DNA from: Hoeflea sp. IMCC20628
Lineage (GTDB): Bacteria; Pseudomonadota; Alphaproteobacteria; Rhizobiales; Rhizobiaceae
Direction of reading: 5' to 3'
Length of the DNA stretch: 64,000 nucleotides
NCBI RefSeq assembly: GCF_001011155.1
Contig: NZ_CP011479.1
Coordinates: forward strand, 204,501 to 268,500
Shown here: positions 20,496 to 30,425 of the stretch, one piece after another
Layout: the number at the start of each line of letters is the position of its first letter
How positions within the stretch are numbered: position 1 is the stretch's first letter
The notes under the pieces: generated by a model
Databases searched by the model: none
Told to the model about the DNA's origin: nothing
What the model saw: only the letters and a program-made list of their open reading frames with translations
Program-made: the position numbers and the translations under genes

Positions 20496-21146
20496 TCAAT
20501 AGCAACTCTTCGCATAGGCATCGTATTGACGCCCTTCGGCCGTTGCCCTGCGCGCATCGCGCTCCGGCATCGGACCAGCCACAACGACCCAATAGCCGGG
20601 CGTAAAATTCGGACAGTTCCTCGAGTTCATCACCTGCCATTGGCGCGACAGATTCCGAGCCCGATTATTGGCGTTCTTGCGGCTGCTGAAAGCGCCGGCT
20701 ACCGCGTACCATTCTTCGTTGGCAGCTTTGTCGGTGTAGCTGTCGAGGCTGAACAGCAGTTCGTCATAGCGGTACCTTGTAACCTCGCATCGCCTGTTAC
20801 GAACCGGGGCCTGACCTTCGAGCAGAATCGAATTGGGGCGGATGGCGCCTTCGACACTGTAATCAATTGCGCCGCATTGGGCGCTGAAACGGCGTGCCGT
20901 GCCAGACACCGCACCAATCCTGGAAATAGTACCTTCGAACAATGTGGTTCCAACGCGAATGCCTATTTTTCGCAATGAAGCTTTTGGCCTGGAGTAGGAA
21001 ATGTACAAGTCATCGCCGCACATTTCCACTTGCATGATCGAACCGTTGTGATCGTAGTCATCAACCGAGCAATTGCTGGCCTGAGACTGTCCGGCAAATC
21101 CGAGCAGCAATAAAATCGTCCACACAGGCCAGAGGCGGTTTGACAT
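20496..21146 (-). CDS. Secreted protein with C-terminal SPOR-like domain
   Basis: A 216-residue exported protein of unknown function. A signal peptide ends SQA before SNCSVDDYDHNG. The middle part has five cysteines and a beta-rich look. The last 70 residues (EWYAVAGAFSSRKNANNRA through GYWVVVAGPM) have the shape of a SPOR domain, which binds denuded peptidoglycan at division sites. ATG 21146 is chosen because AAGGA lies six bases upstream; an ATG at 21161 lacks this. It is divergent from the giant repeat protein and shares its AT-rich upstream region, so the two may be co-regulated. SPOR assignment is from pattern only. Confidence 0.7.
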   Translation of the reverse strand: MSNRLWPVWTILLLLGFAGQSQASNCSVDDYDHNGSIMQVEMCGDDLYISYSRPKASLRKIGIRVGTTLFEGTISRIGAVSGTARRFSAQCGAIDYSVEGAIRPNSILLEGQAPVRNRRCEVTRYRYDELLFSLDSYTDKAANEEWYAVAGAFSSRKNANNRARNLSRQWQVMNSRNCPNFTPGYWVVVAGPMPERDARRATAEGRQYDAYAKSCY

Positions 21147-21506
21147 GGTCAGTCCTTTCATCCGGTCAAATCTCGATTTTATCGACCGTTTTGTATCTTT
21201 TCATCTGTCGTTCAATTTGAAACCTACACTCTGAATCGTCGATGAACAGATTAAAATGAAGGGGAGGCCGGCTTCTTTTCAATATAATCGTTCGATTGAG
21301 TGATATTGCCAAATACATTTGGTAGCAAAATGCAATCGCAACCATCGGTAATTTTTACGAAGGTCCGTACCTGTATGGTTGCTAATTCATGAATCGGCCA
21401 AATAATGCTTTACAGGAATGCATTTCACCTTAGTCTTGAAGGGATTGAATTGCGATAAATATAGATAAAACAGTCGTATTTTGAATTTATTGGGGGATGG
21501 CCGGGT
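21147..21506. other. 360-bp AT-rich intergenic region between divergent secreted-protein genes
   Basis: Base composition falls sharply compared with the flanking genes. I see no ORF, RNA gene or long inverted repeat. It must hold both promoters; a candidate for the rightward one is listed separately. The lower GC could mark strong regulation or a foreign origin. Confidence 0.6.
21436..21465 (+). promoter_or_regulatory. Candidate sigma-70 type promoter of the giant repeat protein
   Basis: TTGAAG at 21436-21441 and TATAGA at 21460-21465 are separated by 18 bp, about 40 bases before ATG 21507. GGGGGA at 21490-21495 is the likely ribosome site. The match is reasonable for an alphaproteobacterial housekeeping promoter but untested. 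Confidence 0.4.
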
Positions 21507-24500
21507 ATGTTTTCTTTTCGTGCATTGATGTCTTGGATTGTCCTGACGCTGTGTCTTTCATCGTTTCCTCTCAGCGCATTTGCCCAGGCTTACGGCACCA
21601 AAGATGCCCAGTATGTCACCAATTCCCGAAACGATTCCGTGCTCAGATATATTGTCTGTCTGGAACTTGTGGCGGGTACGTTGCCGGCAAGCATGAGCAT
21701 GGACAGCCGGCTCAAGCGTGGGGAAGACGATTGCAAGACAGCCGCCTCGCGGCTCCCCAATTCGGCACGTGAACCGGACGCCGACGATATCCGCGGAATG
21801 ATCCTTGAATGCGGCTTTCGCGCCGGTGAAGCTTCCGGCAACGCCGATTGTGGCGGTACGCCAACTGCAGGGCGAAACCAGAACACCCGGGGGCCGAAAC
21901 GCCCCGGCGCGGCTGGCGGTGCCGATGACGTCACGCTCGCACCCAGGATCATCCAGCTCGGAAAATGGGTTGAAGGCATCGTGCATGACGGCTCGAACCT
22001 CTGGGTGTCAGAAAGCGGTCAGAGAACCATTGCGCGCGTCGATTACCGCACTGGCAAGCTTCTCGAGCGGTTGAAGGTAGGCCGCCTTCCGATTGCGATT
22101 ACCTCGATTGGCAAGGATGTATTTACGCTGGTCGCCACCGACAAGGTGATCCTCAAGCATGACGAGCGCAGCAAAAAGACCCGCCTTGCCAACCTCAAGG
22201 ATTGTCCCACCGCCATGCTGGCTTCCGGAGAGGATCTTTTTGTTCTGGGCGAACCGAATTGCAGTTCCAACGAAAGCCGTTTGACGCGTATCGACGCGCG
22301 CACCGGAAAGCAGAAGGCGTCGAGCAATCTGGGCGAATGGGGACAAGCCATCACGGCGTTCGGCTCCGAAATCTGGGTGGGCCATGCACGGGGATCAACG
22401 GTTTCTGTCGTCCGCACATCCGACATGAAAGTATCCAAAGTCAAACTGCCGGGCATCGAAGTCTGGGCTATGGCATCCAACAGCAAATCTGTTTTCGCTG
22501 GTGGCAGCACAGCAAATTCAAATGCTGACGGAAGCATCGTGATGATTGACGCGCAGACCCGCAAGGAGGTCAGGCGGTTTTCCCCGGCTGAGCGGGTTGC
22601 CGAAATCGCAGCCGATGACACCAAGGTTGTCGCTGTCGGCGATGAAGGCACAATCTGGGTCCTGTCGCCCCGCGACCTGTCCCTGCTCCGAACCATTCAT
22701 GCCAATTCCGGTGACTATGAACCCAAGGCGATCGCATTCGTCAAAGACGAACTGGTGGTTTCCGTTGGTCAGTACATCGGTGAGAAAGGTGCGGTGTTTG
22801 TCTTTGCCGATTACCTCCCGCACGGGCTCTCTGTTGCAGCAGGGCCGACAAGGCCCTCATCCAGGCCGCAGCGTCCATCGTCGACGAACAATGGCAAGCC
22901 CGGCAATATCAGTCGCCCAGGTCGTCCATCCTCGACAAATACGGGCCGTCCGCCTCAGGTCATTCAGCGTCCCAACAGGCCACAGCGGCCGGGATCGAGC
23001 AAAGGCTTTCCTTTGTCTGCACGATCGTTCCAGGGAAATGTCCGCAGCAAACCGACGATCAACAGCGCTATTGTTGCCAAGACAAGCAATATGCAGCCGG
23101 TCAAATTGCTGGCGCGCACTGGTGTGATGCTTGCCAACTATCCCTGGTTTTCCATTGAGTTCGCAAATGGGCGCAAGGGGTATCAGTGGGGCAAGCTGAT
23201 TTGCTCGAAGACCAAGCCGATTGCCGGCACCCGTGGTGCCTGCCCCTCCGACAGACCAACAAAACCGAGATTCAATCCACAGGTCAGTGGAAATCAGGGA
23301 TCGGGCATCAAGAATGGTCAGTCGAATGGCGCTGACGTGGTTGTTGGCATTCTGAACCTGTTTGGCCAGATAATCGACAGCAACAACAATAAGAACAATT
23401 CTTCCAACGGCCAGAATCTGTTCAGCGAAAACATTCAAGTCAGGCCTGGCGATGGTCCGGTTTCGTTCTTCCGTGACCTGAATGATGGCCAATTGGCGAT
23501 CTACACGCTTCGCGGAAAAAGAGGCCAGAGGCTCCGGGTTGAGTCCTGGTCGCAGAGCAAGAACGCGATCTTCAATATCTACGTCAACAAGGCGGTCGAA
23601 GGCGGCCGGACCTTGCCCGGCGCGAACGATGGTGACTATGCCACCTATTTCGACGGTGAATTGCCGGAGAACGGCAACTATCTGATTGCAATTGGCTCCA
23701 CCGGCGGCCAGACCTCTTACGAACTGGTTGTGACGGTCGACGAGGAAGAAAACAAATACAAGCCGTCCTACGCGGCGGGCGCATCCAACAGCAAGCTTGT
23801 GGTTGGAACCTATTCGGGCGCAAACGTCGAATCCGGCAACATCCAGTACAATGAAAAGACCCGGTCTCTGACATGGACCGAGTTCTGTGGTCCGACCATC
23901 AGTCTGAACCCGGACTGGGTCAATTCCCGTTTGATTCCGCGCGTAGGTGGTCTCAAGGCATTCCGGCTCAATGTTAAAGACGGCGAGGTTTTGGGCTTCA
24001 GAAGTCGCCAGAATACCTATGTCAAACAGGCCGGAATCATGATGCCAATGTGCGTGGCACCACCCAAAAATCCCCGTGGCGGCAAGAATAAGGGCCCGGG
24101 TTCAGCAGCGCCTGATTGGGCACTTGACCCGCAGGATGCGCGGCGATCCAAGGACTACAGCAGTCTTCCGAATACCTATTGGAGGATCTGCGAAGCTGCG
24201 AACAGCAATCCGAAGTCAAAGGATTTCAACAATGAGAGAGCGTTTTGGGACTGTGCCGATGAAGGCCTCAAGCTGACAGCCGGCACCGGCGGCAACAGCG
24301 GAAAAAATCCCGCTGCCCTACCCGATAAGCGCACCAACAAGGATTACCGCCTCGTTCCTTCCGCTGAGCAGCAGATATGTGGGACCAAATACCCTGGCAG
24401 CCCCAAGGACGATAAGGGCTATTTCGACTGTATGGACGTCTTCCTTGCGGCAGCGAAAACTGCTGGCAATGGCAATACCCCGGCAGCCCCGGACTGGACG

Positions 24501-27500
24501 CTCAAGCCTCAGGACAGGATAAGATCGGTCAAGGATTACAGCAGTGTTCCGACTCGTGAGTGGTCGAAATGCGAATCCGCGAACAATGACCCCAAATCGC
24601 CGAAGTTCAACAACGAGAAAGCCTTCTGGGACTGTGCCGACCAGGGCCTCCTGTCTGTCGGCGGTGCACCAGTGGCACCTGTTCCTACCGCCCCGGCGGT
24701 GCCTGATCCGCGCAGTTCAAAGGACTACAGTGCGGTTCCCGCAGTTGAAGAACAGAAATGTTCAAATGCTTATCCGGTCAGTCCGAAGGACGACAAGGGC
24801 TATTATGACTGCCAGGATGCAGCCTTGGCAGCGGTAGGACACACCGCCCCTGTCACGCCGGATCCTCGCTTGAACAAGGACTATAGTGCGGTCCCCACAG
24901 CCGAAGACCAGAAATGTGCAGTCGCGTTTCCCGACAGCCCGAAGGACGACAAAGGCTATTATGACTGCAAGGATGCAGCGCTGGCGGTTATCTTGAGCAT
25001 GCCTCCTGTTGCACCGACTGCGCCTACCGCTTCAGATCCACGCAGTTCGAAGGACTACACTCTGGTTCCGTCTGCTCCGCAGCAGTCCTGCCAAACCAAG
25101 TTCCCGGACAGCCCGAAGGATGACAAGGGCTACTATGACTGCATGGATGCGGCGCTGACAGCAGTCGGAACCGGCACCCCAGCAACGCCAGTTGCACCGG
25201 GTACGCCTGTAGCTCCTGATCCGCGCAGTTCGAAGGACTACACCCTGGTTCCGACTGCGCCGCAGCAGTCTTGCCAGACCAGCTTTCCGGACAGCCCGAA
25301 GGATGACAAGGGCTACTATGACTGCATGGATGCGGCGCTGACAGCAGTCGGAACCGGCACCCCAGCAACGCCAGTTGCACCGGGTACGCCTGTAGCTCCT
25401 GATCCACGCAGTTCGAAGGACTACACCCTGGTTCCGTCTGCTCCGCAGCAGTCTTGCCAGACCAGTTTTCCAGACAGCCCGAAGGATGACAAGGATTACT
25501 ATGACTGCATGGATGCTGCTCTGACCGCTGTCGGAACCGGTACTCCAGCAACGCCTGCTGCTCCGGGCACTCCGGTTGCACCGGGTACACCTGCCGCACC
25601 AGATCCGCGCAGTTCGAAGGACTACACCCTGGTTCCGACTGCTCCACAGCAGTCCTGCCAAACCAGCTTCCCGGACAGCCCGAAGGACGACAAGGGCTAC
25701 TATGACTGCATGGATGCTGCGCTGACAGCTGTCGGAACCGGTACTCCAGCAACGCCTGTTGCACCGGGTACGCCTGCCGCGCCAGATCCGCGCGGTTCGA
25801 AGGACTACTCGCTGGTTCCGACTGCTCCACAGCAGTCCTGCCAGACGAACTTCCCTGACAGTCCGAAGGACGACAAGGGCTACTATGACTGCATGGATGC
25901 TGCTCTGACCGCTGTCGGAAGCGGCACTCCTGTTGCACCGGGTACGCCTGCCGCGCCAGATCCGCGCGGTTCGAAGGACTACTCGCTGGTTCCGACTGCT
26001 CCGCAGCAGTCTTGCCAGACGAACTTTCCTGACAGTCCGAAGGACGACAAGGGCTACTATGACTGCATGGATGCTGCTCTGACAGCTGTCGGAAGCGGCA
26101 CTCCAGCAACGCCTGTTGCACCGGGTACGCCTGCCGCGCCAGACTCACGCAGTTCGAAGGACTACTCGCTGGTTCCGACTGCTCCACAGCAGTCTTGCCA
26201 GACCAGTTTTCCGGACAGTCCGAAGGACGACAAGGGCTACTATGACTGCATGGATACGGCGCTGACAGCTGTCGGAACCGGTACTCCAGCAACGCCAGTT
26301 GCACCGGGTACGCCTGGTGCGCCAGATCCGCGCGGGGCCAACGACTACAGTGCGGTTCCGCCGGCCGAAGAGCAGAAATGTTCGAGTGCGTTTCCGAACA
26401 GCCCGCAGGACGACAAGGGTTATTACGATTGCCAGGATGCGGCCTTGAAAGCCGTTGGCACCGCGCCGGTTGCACCGGTAGCTCCGGACCCTTCAGCCGG
26501 AACGCCCGCCGCGCCGGACCCTCGCGGGGCCAACGACTACAGTGCGGTTCCGCCGGCCGAAGAGCAGAAATGTTCGAGTGCGTTTCCGAACAGCCCGCAG
26601 GACGACAAGGGTTATTACAATTGCCAGGATGCGGCCTTGAAAGCCGTTGGCACCGCGCCGGTTACACCGGTAGCTCCGGACCCTTCAGCTGGAACGCCCG
26701 CCGCGCCGGATCCTCGCGGGTCCAACGACTACAGTGCGGTTCCGCCGGCCGAAGAGCAGAAATGTTCGAGTGCGTTTCCGAACAGCCCTCAGGACGACAA
26801 GGGTTATTACGATTGCCAGGATGCAGCGCTGAAGGCTGTTGGCAACGCGCCGGTTGCACCGGTAGCTCCAGACCCTTCAGCTGGAACGCCTGCCGCGCCG
26901 GATCCTCGCGGGTCCAACGACTACAGTGCGGTTCCGCCGGCTGAAGAGCAGAAATGTTCGAGTGCCTTTCCGAACAGCCCGCAGGACGACAAAGGCTATT
27001 ACGATTGCCAGGATGCAGCGCTGAAGGCTGTTGGCAACGCGCCGGTTGCACCGGTAGCTCCAGATCCTTCAGCTGGAACGCCCGCCGCGCCGGACCCTCG
27101 CGGGGCCAACGACTACAGTGCGGTTCCACCGGCTGAAGAGCAGAAATGTTCGGCTGCCTTTCCCAATAGCCCGCAAGACGACAAGGGTTATTACGATTGC
27201 CAGGATGCAGCGCTGAAGGCTGTTGGCAACGCGCCGGTTGCACCGGTAGCTCCAGATCCTTCAGCTGGAACGCCTGCTGCGCCAGATCCGCGCGGGGCCA
27301 ACGACTACAGTGCGGTTCCACCGGCTGAAGAGCAGAAATGTTCGGCTGCCTTTCCCAATAGCCCGCAAGACGACAAGGGTTATTACGATTGCCAGGATGC
27401 AGCGCTGAAGGCTGTTGGCAACGCGCCGGTTGCACCGGTAGCTCCAGATCCTTCAGCTGGAACGCCTGCTGCGCCAGATCCGCGCGGGGCCAACGACTAC

Positions 27501-27848
27501 AGTGCGGTTCCACCGGCTGAAGAGCAGAAATGTTCGGCTGCCTTTCCCAATAGCCCGCAAGACGACAAGGGCTATTATGATTGCCAGGATGCGGCGTTGA
27601 AGGTTGTGGGCAACGCGCCTGTGGCGCCTGCCGCTCCGGATTCCGATAGCGGAGCTGCCGACAAGTCCTCCGGTGCGGCTGATGATCAGGACGCGGCGCT
27701 CAACGAGATTTATGGTTATTGTTCCAGCACCTTTCCCGGTTCGGAAGATCCCTGCTATCAGGCGCTTGCCCAATGTCTTTCGGTGAGTTCAGACACCGAT
27801 TCAAACGAGTATTTCCAATGCGCCCAGGAAGCGGGTTGGGTTCAGTAG
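21507..27848 (+). CDS. Giant exported multidomain protein with 19 cysteine-paired tandem modules
   Basis: A 2113-residue protein of unknown function. Order seen: signal peptide to about residue 26 (AFA-Q); a cysteine-containing N-terminal domain (about 27-115); a beta-propeller-like region about 147-435 with repeated strands such as LWVSESGQRTIARVD; a Pro/Arg/Ser-rich linker; an SH3b-like domain about 502-566 (GNVRSKPTINSAIVAKT to WGKLIC); an Asn-rich linker; a PPC-like beta-sandwich about 642-746 ending SYELVVTV; another beta domain to about 850; then 19 modules from about 882 to 2045. Each module has DY, a VP motif, C-x16-C (C-x20-C in modules 1 and 3) and DDKGYYDC, joined by Pro/Ala/Thr linkers. 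A cysteine-rich C-terminal cap ends the protein. No membrane anchor or sortase-like tail is seen, so it is probably periplasmic or secreted. Confidence 0.9.
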   Translation: MFSFRALMSWIVLTLCLSSFPLSAFAQAYGTKDAQYVTNSRNDSVLRYIVCLELVAGTLPASMSMDSRLKRGEDDCKTAASRLPNSAREPDADDIRGMILECGFRAGEASGNADCGGTPTAGRNQNTRGPKRPGAAGGADDVTLAPRIIQLGKWVEGIVHDGSNLWVSESGQRTIARVDYRTGKLLERLKVGRLPIAITSIGKDVFTLVATDKVILKHDERSKKTRLANLKDCPTAMLASGEDLFVLGEPNCSSNESRLTRIDARTGKQKASSNLGEWGQAITAFGSEIWVGHARGSTVSVVRTSDMKVSKVKLPGIEVWAMASNSKSVFAGGSTANSNADGSIVMIDAQTRKEVRRFSPAERVAEIAADDTKVVAVGDEGTIWVLSPRDLSLLRTIHANSGDYEPKAIAFVKDELVVSVGQYIGEKGAVFVFADYLPHGLSVAAGPTRPSSRPQRPSSTNNGKPGNISRPGRPSSTNTGRPPQVIQRPNRPQRPGSSKGFPLSARSFQGNVRSKPTINSAIVAKTSNMQPVKLLARTGVMLANYPWFSIEFANGRKGYQWGKLICSKTKPIAGTRGACPSDRPTKPRFNPQVSGNQGSGIKNGQSNGADVVVGILNLFGQIIDSNNNKNNSSNGQNLFSENIQVRPGDGPVSFFRDLNDGQLAIYTLRGKRGQRLRVESWSQSKNAIFNIYVNKAVEGGRTLPGANDGDYATYFDGELPENGNYLIAIGSTGGQTSYELVVTVDEEENKYKPSYAAGASNSKLVVGTYSGANVESGNIQYNEKTRSLTWTEFCGPTISLNPDWVNSRLIPRVGGLKAFRLNVKDGEVLGFRSRQNTYVKQAGIMMPMCVAPPKNPRGGKNKGPGSAAPDWALDPQDARRSKDYSSLPNTYWRICEAANSNPKSKDFNNERAFWDCADEGLKLTAGTGGNSGKNPAALPDKRTNKDYRLVPSAEQQICGTKYPGSPKDDKGYFDCMDVFLAAAKTAGNGNTPAAPDWTLKPQDRIRSVKDYSSVPTREWSKCESANNDPKSPKFNNEKAFWDCADQGLLSVGGAPVAPVPTAPAVPDPRSSKDYSAVPAVEEQKCSNAYPVSPKDDKGYYDCQDAALAAVGHTAPVTPDPRLNKDYSAVPTAEDQKCAVAFPDSPKDDKGYYDCKDAALAVILSMPPVAPTAPTASDPRSSKDYTLVPSAPQQSCQTKFPDSPKDDKGYYDCMDAALTAVGTGTPATPVAPGTPVAPDPRSSKDYTLVPTAPQQSCQTSFPDSPKDDKGYYDCMDAALTAVGTGTPATPVAPGTPVAPDPRSSKDYTLVPSAPQQSCQTSFPDSPKDDKDYYDCMDAALTAVGTGTPATPAAPGTPVAPGTPAAPDPRSSKDYTLVPTAPQQSCQTSFPDSPKDDKGYYDCMDAALTAVGTGTPATPVAPGTPAAPDPRGSKDYSLVPTAPQQSCQTNFPDSPKDDKGYYDCMDAALTAVGSGTPVAPGTPAAPDPRGSKDYSLVPTAPQQSCQTNFPDSPKDDKGYYDCMDAALTAVGSGTPATPVAPGTPAAPDSRSSKDYSLVPTAPQQSCQTSFPDSPKDDKGYYDCMDTALTAVGTGTPATPVAPGTPGAPDPRGANDYSAVPPAEEQKCSSAFPNSPQDDKGYYDCQDAALKAVGTAPVAPVAPDPSAGTPAAPDPRGANDYSAVPPAEEQKCSSAFPNSPQDDKGYYNCQDAALKAVGTAPVTPVAPDPSAGTPAAPDPRGSNDYSAVPPAEEQKCSSAFPNSPQDDKGYYDCQDAALKAVGNAPVAPVAPDPSAGTPAAPDPRGSNDYSAVPPAEEQKCSSAFPNSPQDDKGYYDCQDAALKAVGNAPVAPVAPDPSAGTPAAPDPRGANDYSAVPPAEEQKCSAAFPNSPQDDKGYYDCQDAALKAVGNAPVAPVAPDPSAGTPAAPDPRGANDYSAVPPAEEQKCSAAFPNSPQDDKGYYDCQDAALKAVGNAPVAPVAPDPSAGTPAAPDPRGANDYSAVPPAEEQKCSAAFPNSPQDDKGYYDCQDAALKVVGNAPVAPAAPDSDSGAADKSSGAADDQDAALNEIYGYCSSTFPGSEDPCYQALAQCLSVSSDTDSNEYFQCAQEAGWVQ
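24103..27640 (+). repeat. Intragenic tandem repeat array of 19 modules
   Basis: Anchor DY codons recur 19 times. Early modules (24150-25050) are divergent and irregularly spaced. Modules beginning at 25050, 25233, 25416, 25617, 25800, 25974 and 26157 are spaced 183, 183, 201, 183, 174 and 183 bp. The last seven (26340, 26532, 26724, 26916, 27108, 27300, 27492) have an exact 192-bp period. 27108-27299 and 27300-27491 appear identical base for base. The gradient from degenerate to identical copies points to recent expansion at the 3' end. Confidence 0.95.
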
Positions 27849-27985: not shown

Positions 27986-29461
27986 TCAGGAAGGCGTTTT
28001 GCGAGGGATGCTCACAACAGCCTCGGCCTCAATCTCAACCCGGAAATCGCCGATCAGGTTGCCGACCAGGAACGTGGTGTTGGCAGGTGGATTGGTGGTG
28101 AAGCGCAGCCCGTGGGCGCGCGCGGCAGGCTCGACGTCTTCGTCTCCACGCAAATACATACGGGTGCGCAGCACATCCTTCGGGTCTCCGCCAAGTGCCC
28201 GCACCGAAGCGGCGATCTTGTCGAGAATATAGGTGGTTTGAGCACCAGCGTCGTCGAGCGCAACGGTGCGATCGACACCGTGGGTCGCGGTGGTGCCTGA
28301 GACAACGATGCGGTCACCATCGCGCAAGGCCCGGCAGTAGCCGGCGATCGGCTCCCAGAGCGATCCCGAAAACACCCGCGCCCGATCCGGATTTTCGGGA
28401 TCCGTGACTGCCTCCATGGCGCTGGGCATTTTCGCCAGGTGATGGCTCAGATCGCCCGAGGCGGTGAGAAAAGGCGGCTGGCGGTATTCATCGCCGCAAT
28501 CACCGGGGATCGGGCGGGTTGCGTCGAAAGCCTGGTTCAGCAATGCGTGGTCGTCCCTGTCGAGTTCGAACTGGAACAGGCGCAGATTGTCGGCGCGATG
28601 CTGGTTTTCGCCCAACCGCGCCCCAACGATGGCGCCGGCGACATGGGCATGTTCGAGAACCCAGCGGGTGGCGACGTTGGAAATCGAGACCTTGTGTTTC
28701 GTGGCGATATGGCTGGCTGCCTTGAGGATGCCTTGGTAGGCATCCCAGCCGCCGGCGGCATGGATGAACCGAAGATATTTCGAACCGCTCCAGTCGGCGA
28801 CCGAATCCGGTTCGGGCTTGTCGAGCCAACGCTCGGAGAGAAAGCCGCCGCACAGGGTGCCATAGGCCAGCAACTGCACATTGTGCTTTTTGCAGGTTTC
28901 CGCGAGGTGACCGGCGGCGCGGTGATCAATCAGCGAGAAGGAAACCTGGTTGGAGACCAGCGGTATGCCATCGGCCAGGGCAAGATTGAGGTGGGCGGCA
29001 TCAAAATTGGTGACGCCGATCTCTCCGATCAGGCCGTCTTGTTTGAGCCGCGCCAATTCATGCAGAGCATCGAGCCAGGCGGGGTGCTCGAAGGTCCACC
29101 AGTGAAACTGCAGCAGATCGACACGGTCGACGCCGAGGCGATCGAGCCGCTGCTGGACGCCGGCGCGCACTACCTCGGCGGTCATTGGACCGGGTTCGGG
29201 GCACCATTTGGTGAAGGCCTTGGGGCGGGGTGTGTCCTTCCAGCCGCGCAACATTTCGCCGGTGATCAACTCGGCGCTGCCGTAATGATCGGCCATGTCA
29301 AATGTGTCGAAGCCTTCTTCCGCATAGGCTGTCAGCGCACGGGCGCCCGCCAAAGGATCAAGTGTGACGCCATCTCTTTCCTGATCGGCGACCTGCCAGA
29401 GGCCGGTCAGAATGCGACTGATGGAGAGTCCGGGAGCGAGGTCTTTGCGGTCAGGTTTCAT
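27986..29461 (-). CDS. Aldo/keto reductase fused to a RidA-like domain
   Basis: A 491-residue fusion. Residues about 10-335 are an aldo/keto reductase with tetrad Asp55, Tyr60 (FDMADHYG), Lys85 (FTKWCPEP) and His120 (LQFHWW). Residues about 360-485 form a YjgF/RidA-like domain (GDRIVVSGTTATHG through FRVEIEAEAVV). The Arg that binds the substrate carboxylate in true RidA (PARS context) is replaced by Asn here (PANTT), so imine deamination is doubtful. ATG 29461 is chosen because it starts four bases after the permease stop; longer readings overlap that gene. It closes the Liv-type operon and shares a paralogous reductase with 34010-35059. Substrate unknown. Confidence 0.88.
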   Translation of the reverse strand: MKPDRKDLAPGLSISRILTGLWQVADQERDGVTLDPLAGARALTAYAEEGFDTFDMADHYGSAELITGEMLRGWKDTPRPKAFTKWCPEPGPMTAEVVRAGVQQRLDRLGVDRVDLLQFHWWTFEHPAWLDALHELARLKQDGLIGEIGVTNFDAAHLNLALADGIPLVSNQVSFSLIDHRAAGHLAETCKKHNVQLLAYGTLCGGFLSERWLDKPEPDSVADWSGSKYLRFIHAAGGWDAYQGILKAASHIATKHKVSISNVATRWVLEHAHVAGAIVGARLGENQHRADNLRLFQFELDRDDHALLNQAFDATRPIPGDCGDEYRQPPFLTASGDLSHHLAKMPSAMEAVTDPENPDRARVFSGSLWEPIAGYCRALRDGDRIVVSGTTATHGVDRTVALDDAGAQTTYILDKIAASVRALGGDPKDVLRTRMYLRGDEDVEPAARAHGLRFTTNPPANTTFLVGNLIGDFRVEIEAEAVVSIPRKTPS

Positions 29462-29465
29462 GGAT

Positions 29466-30425
29466 TTACTGGTCCTTGTTGCGGCGGCCGAGGTGGCGCG
29501 ACACCGAGCGCACCTCGGGCAAAATACCCTGCGGCCGCCAGAGAAGAATGACGCACAGCATGACGCCAATGGCCACGATCTGCAGCGACGCGGCTCGGGC
29601 TTGCTGATCGGCGGGGAAGATTTCCGAAATCAGCGCGCCTGACAGGGCCCAGATCGCCCAGACCAGAACAGCACCGAGAATGGCGCCTCGATTGTTACCG
29701 GAGCCACCGACAATCAGCATGGCCCAGACCTGGAAGGTCATCATCGGAAGGTAATTTCCCGGGGCAATGAATCCGATGAAATGGGCTTGCACCGCACCGG
29801 CCAGCGCCATGATGGCGCCGCCAAGCGCAAAGGCCTGGATCCGCAACAGAACAGGGTTCTTGCCCAAGGCTTGCGCCGCAACTTCATCCTCGCGCACCGC
29901 CCGCAACGCTCTGCCCCAGGGGCTGCGCAGCAGATGTTCGAGCAACAGGTAGCATGCCAGTACGACGGCCGCGGTCAGCGCCAGATTGATGAAGTTGAAG
30001 GCGAAGGCCTGTCCCTGCAACTCAGCAAATGGGCGCGGAATAAACGCCATTCCGAAGGCGCCGCCGGTCAGGCTTTCAGCGTTCTGAAAGACCAGTTGCA
30101 GCGCCACGGCGATACCGAAGGTGGTGATTGCCAGGTAGTCGGATCGCATTCGAAGTGTCAGCAAGCCCACAGCCAGCGCAAGCAGCCCACCTGCTGCCAT
30201 CGCCGCCAGCCAGCCGACAAGGATCGGCAGGTCAAAGCCGCCGATGCGCTCGACTGCATCCGGCGTGGTCAGAGCCGCAGACACGTATGCGCCCAATCCG
30301 ACGAAGCCGGCAATGCCGACATTGAACAGGCCGGTTTGTCCCCATTGCACATTCAATCCCAGGCACATGATCGCATAGGTCAGTGCCACGGTGAGAAAGA
30401 ATGCGGTATAGGCGAGTATTTCCAT
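29466..30425 (-). CDS. LivM-like branched-chain-type ABC permease
   Basis: A 319-residue inner-membrane permease with about ten hydrophobic segments. GLNVQWGQTGLFNVGIAGFVGLGAY matches the conserved N-terminal block of LivM, and RALRAVREDEVAAQALGKN is the cytoplasmic loop that meets the ATPases. It starts directly after the LivH stop with no gap. Despite the family name, the substrate may not be an amino acid, given the reductase genes in the same cluster. Confidence 0.9.
   Translation of the reverse strand: MEILAYTAFFLTVALTYAIMCLGLNVQWGQTGLFNVGIAGFVGLGAYVSAALTTPDAVERIGGFDLPILVGWLAAMAAGGLLALAVGLLTLRMRSDYLAITTFGIAVALQLVFQNAESLTGGAFGMAFIPRPFAELQGQAFAFNFINLALTAAVVLACYLLLEHLLRSPWGRALRAVREDEVAAQALGKNPVLLRIQAFALGGAIMALAGAVQAHFIGFIAPGNYLPMMTFQVWAMLIVGGSGNNRGAILGAVLVWAIWALSGALISEIFPADQQARAASLQIVAIGVMLCVILLWRPQGILPEVRSVSRHLGRRNKDQ

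Follow-up and report, generated by a model that had tools for sequence, protein, structure and literature searches.

A putatively exported giant protein of Hoeflea sp. IMCC20628 with nineteen cysteine-pair modules of a predicted helical-hairpin fold

Periscope Proteins and fibrillar adhesins (PMC8201768, PMC8286594) consist of a folded N-terminal head followed by a C-terminal tandem array of small, similar domains, the copy number of which differs between relatives. A similar arrangement is seen in a protein of 2113 residues from Hoeflea sp. IMCC20628, which is encoded by an open reading frame (ORF) running from an ATG start to a stop codon at positions 21507-27848 (+) of the 64,000-nucleotide stretch analysed here (the window; contig positions 204501-268500 of a 5.1-Mb genome). 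The tandem array of highly similar folded domains that marks Periscope Proteins is found as 19 modules, where folding is predicted for one of them. Periscope Proteins are further marked by a repeat number that varies among the strains of a species and by an elongated, rod-like array that projects the head from the surface; the protein described here resembles such length-variable stalk proteins in its layout. Unlike in the arrays of those proteins, the modules are predicted to be small, all-helical hairpins, each with a Cys pair, on Pro/Ala linkers in an alphaproteobacterium, and many of the repeats have diverged considerably in their DNA at synonymous sites. A Pfam scan of the whole protein recognised neither a cell-surface anchor nor an adhesive domain of the kind that marks fibrillar adhesins, nearly half of which were reported to have no known anchor (PMC8286594).

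Residues about 147-433 have the same predicted fold as YncE-type proteins, but here the propeller forms part of a multidomain protein of 2113 residues, and the NCBIfam YncE equivalog NF052280 scores 18.2 bits, far under its cut-off of 400. The CHCH twin CX9C proteins are helical hairpins with two CX9C motifs. The module is likewise a predicted helical hairpin with Cys in both helices, whereas it has a single pair with a spacing of x20 or x16 in place of two CX9C motifs. To our knowledge, most of the stalk domains known from bacteria are either beta-rich or coiled-coil.

The array modules are selected at the protein level

An initial annotation, made by a model from the sequence alone, had claimed 19 modules with a fixed Cys pair, and a pattern scan gives the same number, consisting of two long modules (C-x20-C) and 17 medium modules (C-x16-C). 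Module 1 (24114-24284, long), module 2 (24312-24461, medium) and module 3 (24495-24665, long) are followed by the medium modules 4-19 with Pro/Ala linkers between them (24693-27614), all on the + strand, and the Cys residues of the long modules are at 895/916 and 1022/1043. The motif DDKGYYDC, which the same annotation had given for every module, occurs unchanged in 14 of the 17 medium modules and is replaced by GYFDC, DYYDC and GYYNC in one each; it does not hold for the two long modules, both of which have NNExAFWDC at this place. When residues 860-2060, which hold 38 Cys, were shuffled 2000 times, the number of Cys pairs with a spacing of 16 or 20 averaged 1.3 and never exceeded 7, compared to 19 observed, so that the spacing is not due to chance. 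The linkers between the modules are 12-27 residues long and rich in Pro and Ala, which suggests an arrangement like beads on a string; the initial annotation had thought of a long rod.

The cores of the 17 medium modules (136 pairs) differ at synonymous sites with a mean proportion (pS) of 0.59 and at non-synonymous sites with a mean proportion (pN) of 0.16. Within modules 6-12 and within modules 13-19, pN is 0-0.05 and pS reaches up to about 0.5, and the synonymous sites of the core are identical in one module pair. Between the groups pS is often near saturation, so that the pS/pN ratios are rough, although their direction is clear. Because synonymous change is far above non-synonymous change, the protein sequence of the modules has been selected. 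The DNA forms tandem arrays with a period of 183 (24927-26333) and of 192 (26319-27619). ORFs also run through the array on the reverse strand at 25024-26475 (-), with 483 codons, and at 26662-27513 (-), with 283 codons, which are likely a by-product of the codon pattern of the repeats.

The structure of module 1 was predicted with AlphaFold2 from 21 aligned modules, taken from the window and from two named records. The mean predicted local distance difference test (pLDDT) score was 88.2 (81.4-88.2 in the five models), and the predicted template modelling (pTM) score was 0.71. Helices are predicted at residues 9-12, 20-30 and 41-56, with Cys26 in the second helix and Cys47 in the third. The module is thereby predicted with good confidence to be a helix-loop-helix hairpin with one Cys in each helix, in support of the disulfide-locked helical hairpin that the initial annotation had guessed. 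The best Foldseek match of this model to the PDB has an E-value of 4.6, and small helical hairpins generally match weakly.

The same annotation had recognised no known repeat in the module and had named a confident match to a known repeat family as one result that would speak against it; none appeared in the profile searches. All 27 rows of the module alignment were scanned, which gave nothing credible in Pfam (best E 0.034, in one member), nothing credible in NCBIfam (best E 0.042 and 14.1 bits against a cut-off of 140, for the member shown) and no credible family in PHROGs, and a profile search of the PDB sequences gave no match up to E 10. The PHROGs family phrog_7860, which matches the whole protein with an E-value of 1.7e-7, was rejected as a sum over repeats because no stretch passes alone and the family is absent among those listed in the per-module scan. 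As far as Pfam, NCBIfam, PHROGs and the PDB sequences can tell, the module is a new family in a protein whose overall kind is known.

The Cys residues follow the domain layout throughout the protein. One of the 53 is in the signal peptide, and the other 52 occur in even-numbered sets for each domain, namely four in residues 51-115, two in the propeller, two in or just after the SH3b match, Cys794 and Cys849, 38 in the array and four at the C-terminus. All ten mature Cys of residues 1-880 are kept in the ortholog of a congeneric genome (G017), where Cys16 of the signal peptide is the only Cys of this region that is not conserved. The Hoeflea sp. IMCC20628 genome encodes DsbB, which makes disulfide formation in the periplasm plausible.

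The module occurs in other large proteins and varies between species

The module profile was searched against draws of genomes, which overlap and were not made unique. It matched 3 of 18 genomes of the genus (its own, G017 and G007), 3 of 397 of the order (its own, G146 and G196, or 2 of the 396 others), only its own among 385 of the class, and 2 of 299 of the phylum, where the second was a partial match with an E-value of 0.0068 that was set aside. For some genomes, scoring covered only 16 to 22 of the first-look candidates, and a few weak module copies may therefore be missed. A peptide pattern of the long type was also searched in 84,980 named species, each represented by one genome, and 11 stretches matched, two of which encode relatives, in a metagenome-assembled genome of Alphaproteobacteria (judged to be the G007 contig, with the match at the same position and 100% identity over the module) and in Hyphomicrobiales bacterium NORP94; these two are a lower bound, since the pattern misses versions like that of G196 and the window's own and near genomes may be excluded. 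Judged by these sequences, the module looks rare and present in a few Hyphomicrobiales. A mobile or phage origin was rejected, because the whole protein gave no match to plasmids and phages, and none of the 54 stretches of viral contigs that fitted the pattern was confirmed.

Outside the array-bearing gene, the module is found in several different settings, also in other genera. In G146, a frame of 518 residues combines a single long module with the four-Cys N-terminal domain and, as judged by alignment, the propeller. In G196, a protein of 3164 residues (L065 3357-12851) carries one long module together with seven cadherin stretches and, in its C-terminal part, repeated units that bear Cys, and another contig of this genome encodes the four-Cys domain, a propeller-like region and SH3b in a protein cut at the contig end. 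G007 and G017 each have a second protein, in which cadherin domains are followed by four long-type modules (one C-x21-C), and G017 has one further long module close to its ortholog, in a stretch of broken-looking frames. On the level of sequence, the long form is a building block that is present in one or in four copies in further large proteins, some of which have cadherin domains. Consecutive overlapping frames beside the G017 ortholog, at L021 1858-5593 (-), resemble by eye the giant protein of G196; they look like a broken gene or assembly errors.

The arrays of the orthologs are composed differently. The array of two long and 17 medium modules in the window protein corresponds to eight long modules, one medium, one C-x13-C and four C-x12-C modules in G017, and to two long modules, two medium modules and shorter forms in the ortholog fragment of G007. 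As one genome was compared for each species, these are differences between congeneric species. In the G017 ortholog, the four short C-x12-C modules are followed by Gln-rich linkers (L021 11753-12496). The loop lengths of the family comprise C-x20 and C-x16 and probably also C-x13 and C-x12, where the C-x12-C modules of G017 are probably a further shortened form. In profile comparisons using hhalign, the module matched these short modules with an E-value of 1.4e-4 and a probability of 53, which makes a relationship likely, if not firm. Its likeness to the C-terminal four-Cys domain, which involves the last Cys pair of that domain, is weak (E 0.024, probability 2), and homology with the N-terminal four-Cys domain was rejected at a probability of 0.3.

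A tree of 37 distinct modules separates the 20 long from the 17 medium ones by one branch with a support of 99/98, although the tool cautions that the columns are few and the branches long. Among the eight proteins examined, medium modules are found only in the three congeneric orthologs. The simplest history would be that the long form is the older and more widespread building block, that a shortening of the loop in this gene gave rise to the medium form, and that each species then multiplied a different module form. The homolog in G008 has the propeller and a similar C-terminal region without the module, which indicates that the head and the array are separable.

Head, terminal domains and neighbouring genes

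The N-terminus was read from the sequence as a Sec signal peptide of residues 1-26 (21507-21584, +), with a hydrophobic core and AFA before Q27, in agreement with the initial annotation on this reading. It is followed by a four-Cys domain of residues 27-115 (21585-21851, +), for which helices are predicted with low confidence. In an alignment, all four Cys are retained in G017, G007 and G146, and the domain has no Pfam match and no credible match among the PDB sequences. It was detected in 8 of 297 genomes of the order at E 0.01, including its own and three weak matches (E 0.0015-0.0093). In G034 it forms a small protein of 147 residues (L077 1899-2342, -) and in G272 one of 109 residues (L078 1972-2301, -), and the starts of both look signal-peptide-like by eye. 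In a propeller paralog of G007 (L025 1801-3144, -), the four-Cys domain is replaced by another N-terminus, which by eye looks PAN/Apple-like.

The AlphaFold2 model of residues 26-864, computed from three sequences, has a mean pLDDT of 52.0 and a pTM of 0.41. In its propeller part (model residues 121-410), 25 of the 29 ten-residue blocks have a mean pLDDT of 73-92, and this part corresponds to a YncE-like beta-propeller of residues about 147-433 (21945-22805, +). As ranked by E-value in Foldseek, the first match of the head model is the Fbw7 propeller (3.3e-15, TMt 0.51) and the second is YncE, 7seu_D (2.8e-14, TMt 0.78, root-mean-square deviation of 3.0 over 328 columns), and the other matches include many propellers, eight-bladed designs among them. 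The YncE-like fold is thus a structural match over most of the domain on a predicted model, and the 28 predicted strands suggest seven blades. The propeller-like region of the initial annotation is borne out by this confident part of the model and its Foldseek matches.

In the Pfam scan of the whole protein, three families appeared, SH3_3 and two weak propeller matches, all under cut-off. The SH3b domain of residues 511-559 (23037-23183, +), which had also been annotated, matches PF08239 with an E-value of 7.6e-6 on the region and 26.5 bits, just under the cut-off of 27; the match exceeds the cut-off in the G196 relative, and the head model does not resolve the domain. For residues about 638-745 (23418-23741, +), annotated as PPC-like, beta strands are predicted in the model with block pLDDT of 36-68; no Pfam match was found, and the nearest solved relative by sequence is PliG, an inhibitor of goose-type lysozyme. 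The match to PliG (4dzg_A) has an E-value of 8.1e-4 using phmmer with one sequence and 1e-4 using a profile of three, and it covers 66 profile positions, where residues 665-730 correspond to residues 31-93 of the 114-residue chain, so that the likeness is limited to a small part of the giant protein. A small region of residues about 766-850 (23802-24056, +) has low-confidence beta strands, no Pfam match, and the pair Cys794 and Cys849, both of which are retained in G017. The C-terminal four-Cys domain, residues 2058-2113 (27678-27845, +), has four Cys, all of which are retained in an alignment with G017 and G007.

The divergently oriented neighbour at 20496-21161 (-) has a signal-like N-terminus and a SPOR-like C-terminus (PF05036, E 0.0011). 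Thirteen further nearby ORFs were scanned, 12 of which match enzyme or transporter families, including FAD and GMC oxidoreductases, aldo/keto reductases, an enolase-type enzyme and ABC transporter parts. A single ORF at 27986-29569 (-) combines an aldo/keto reductase with a RidA-type (Ribonuc_L-PSP) domain.

Possible roles of the protein

The protein may be a Sec-exported envelope or secreted protein in which a binding head is carried on a disulfide-stiffened, length-variable stalk, a reading to which we give about an even chance. It would be exported by Sec and then oxidised in the periplasm. The N-terminal half, comprising the four-Cys domain, the YncE-like propeller, SH3b and the PliG-like region, would act as the putative binding head, and the C-terminal half would form a string of Pro/Ala-linked two-helix modules with one disulfide each. 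Such an array may serve as an extended, protease-resistant spacer, and the length of the stalk would evolve by gain and loss of modules. The points counted for it are that all 38 module Cys are kept, that pS is far above pN, that the module is predicted to be a hairpin and that the orthologs have differing arrays; the conserved mature Cys in G017, DsbB, the head domains and the long module after cadherin domains in the relatives were counted as further support. Several points weigh against the stalk. The whole-protein Pfam scan showed no sign of an outer-membrane anchor, of an autotransporter or of any other surface signal, so that the protein may stay in the periplasm, and it matched no known adhesive domain. 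The module occurs as a single copy in G146 and G196 and hence need not be a stalk unit. The head model is poor outside the propeller, and the genome has one secretin.

The main rival to the stalk is a multivalent array, in which the modules themselves are binding units that together hold a ligand, e.g., a divalent cation or an envelope polysaccharide, and the linkers only separate the sites. Occurrence alone or in fours in other proteins would be needless for a pure spacer, and the region of residues 882-2035 is acidic (151 D/E vs 92 K/R). The long form moreover has a 12-residue loop with an EF-hand-like pattern: all 19 distinct loops from 23 long modules have D or N at position 1 and E at position 12, and 17 of them also have D or N at position 3. 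However, position 5 is variable (N in 8, A in 4, T in 4, K in 2 and S in 1 of the 19), this loop is missing from the medium modules, which are 17 of the 19 in the window protein, and the Pfam and NCBIfam scans of the 27 module rows gave neither an EF-hand nor another binding family. With these observations on both sides, we consider multivalent binding possible but rather unlikely, at about one half of the likelihood given to the stalk.

Slightly less likely still is a periplasmic peptidoglycan-associated factor, the SH3b and PliG-like regions of which would, together with the SPOR-like neighbour, attach to the wall or shield it. Both regions are present in the head, and the neighbour stands beside all three array-bearing congeneric orthologs, i.e., also in G007 and in G017, where it is split into two frames. 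The PliG match, however, covers only the 66 profile positions given above, and the SPOR match is just under its cut-off (19.7 vs 21 bits). The neighbour was not seen by eye beside the homologs in G146, G196 and G008, and it is far more common than the module (45 of 199 genomes of the order at E 0.001 vs 3 of 397), mostly via its N-terminal domain. Replication slippage could also have piled up modules without any role, in line with the 183- and 192-base tandem arrays of the DNA and with the copy number differing between species; yet such neutral expansion is contradicted by pS far above pN and by 38 of 38 Cys being kept across many synonymous changes, and we regard it as very improbable.

Whichever role the array has, the module may represent a new family of small, disulfide-locked helical-hairpin domains that is used as an interchangeable extracellular block in a few Hyphomicrobiales. 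It would occur singly or in fours after cadherin or propeller domains and would have been multiplied in one gene lineage, where versions with different loop lengths were amplified differently by species, and the long form may carry a metal-binding loop; this broader description, taken as a whole, is rated somewhat short of an even chance. If the stalk reading is true, a tiny helical module held by one disulfide and strung on Pro/Ala linkers would offer an alternative and simple design for a long extracellular spacer. Within a single gene family, the orthologs also form a natural series that varies in loop length and in copy number.

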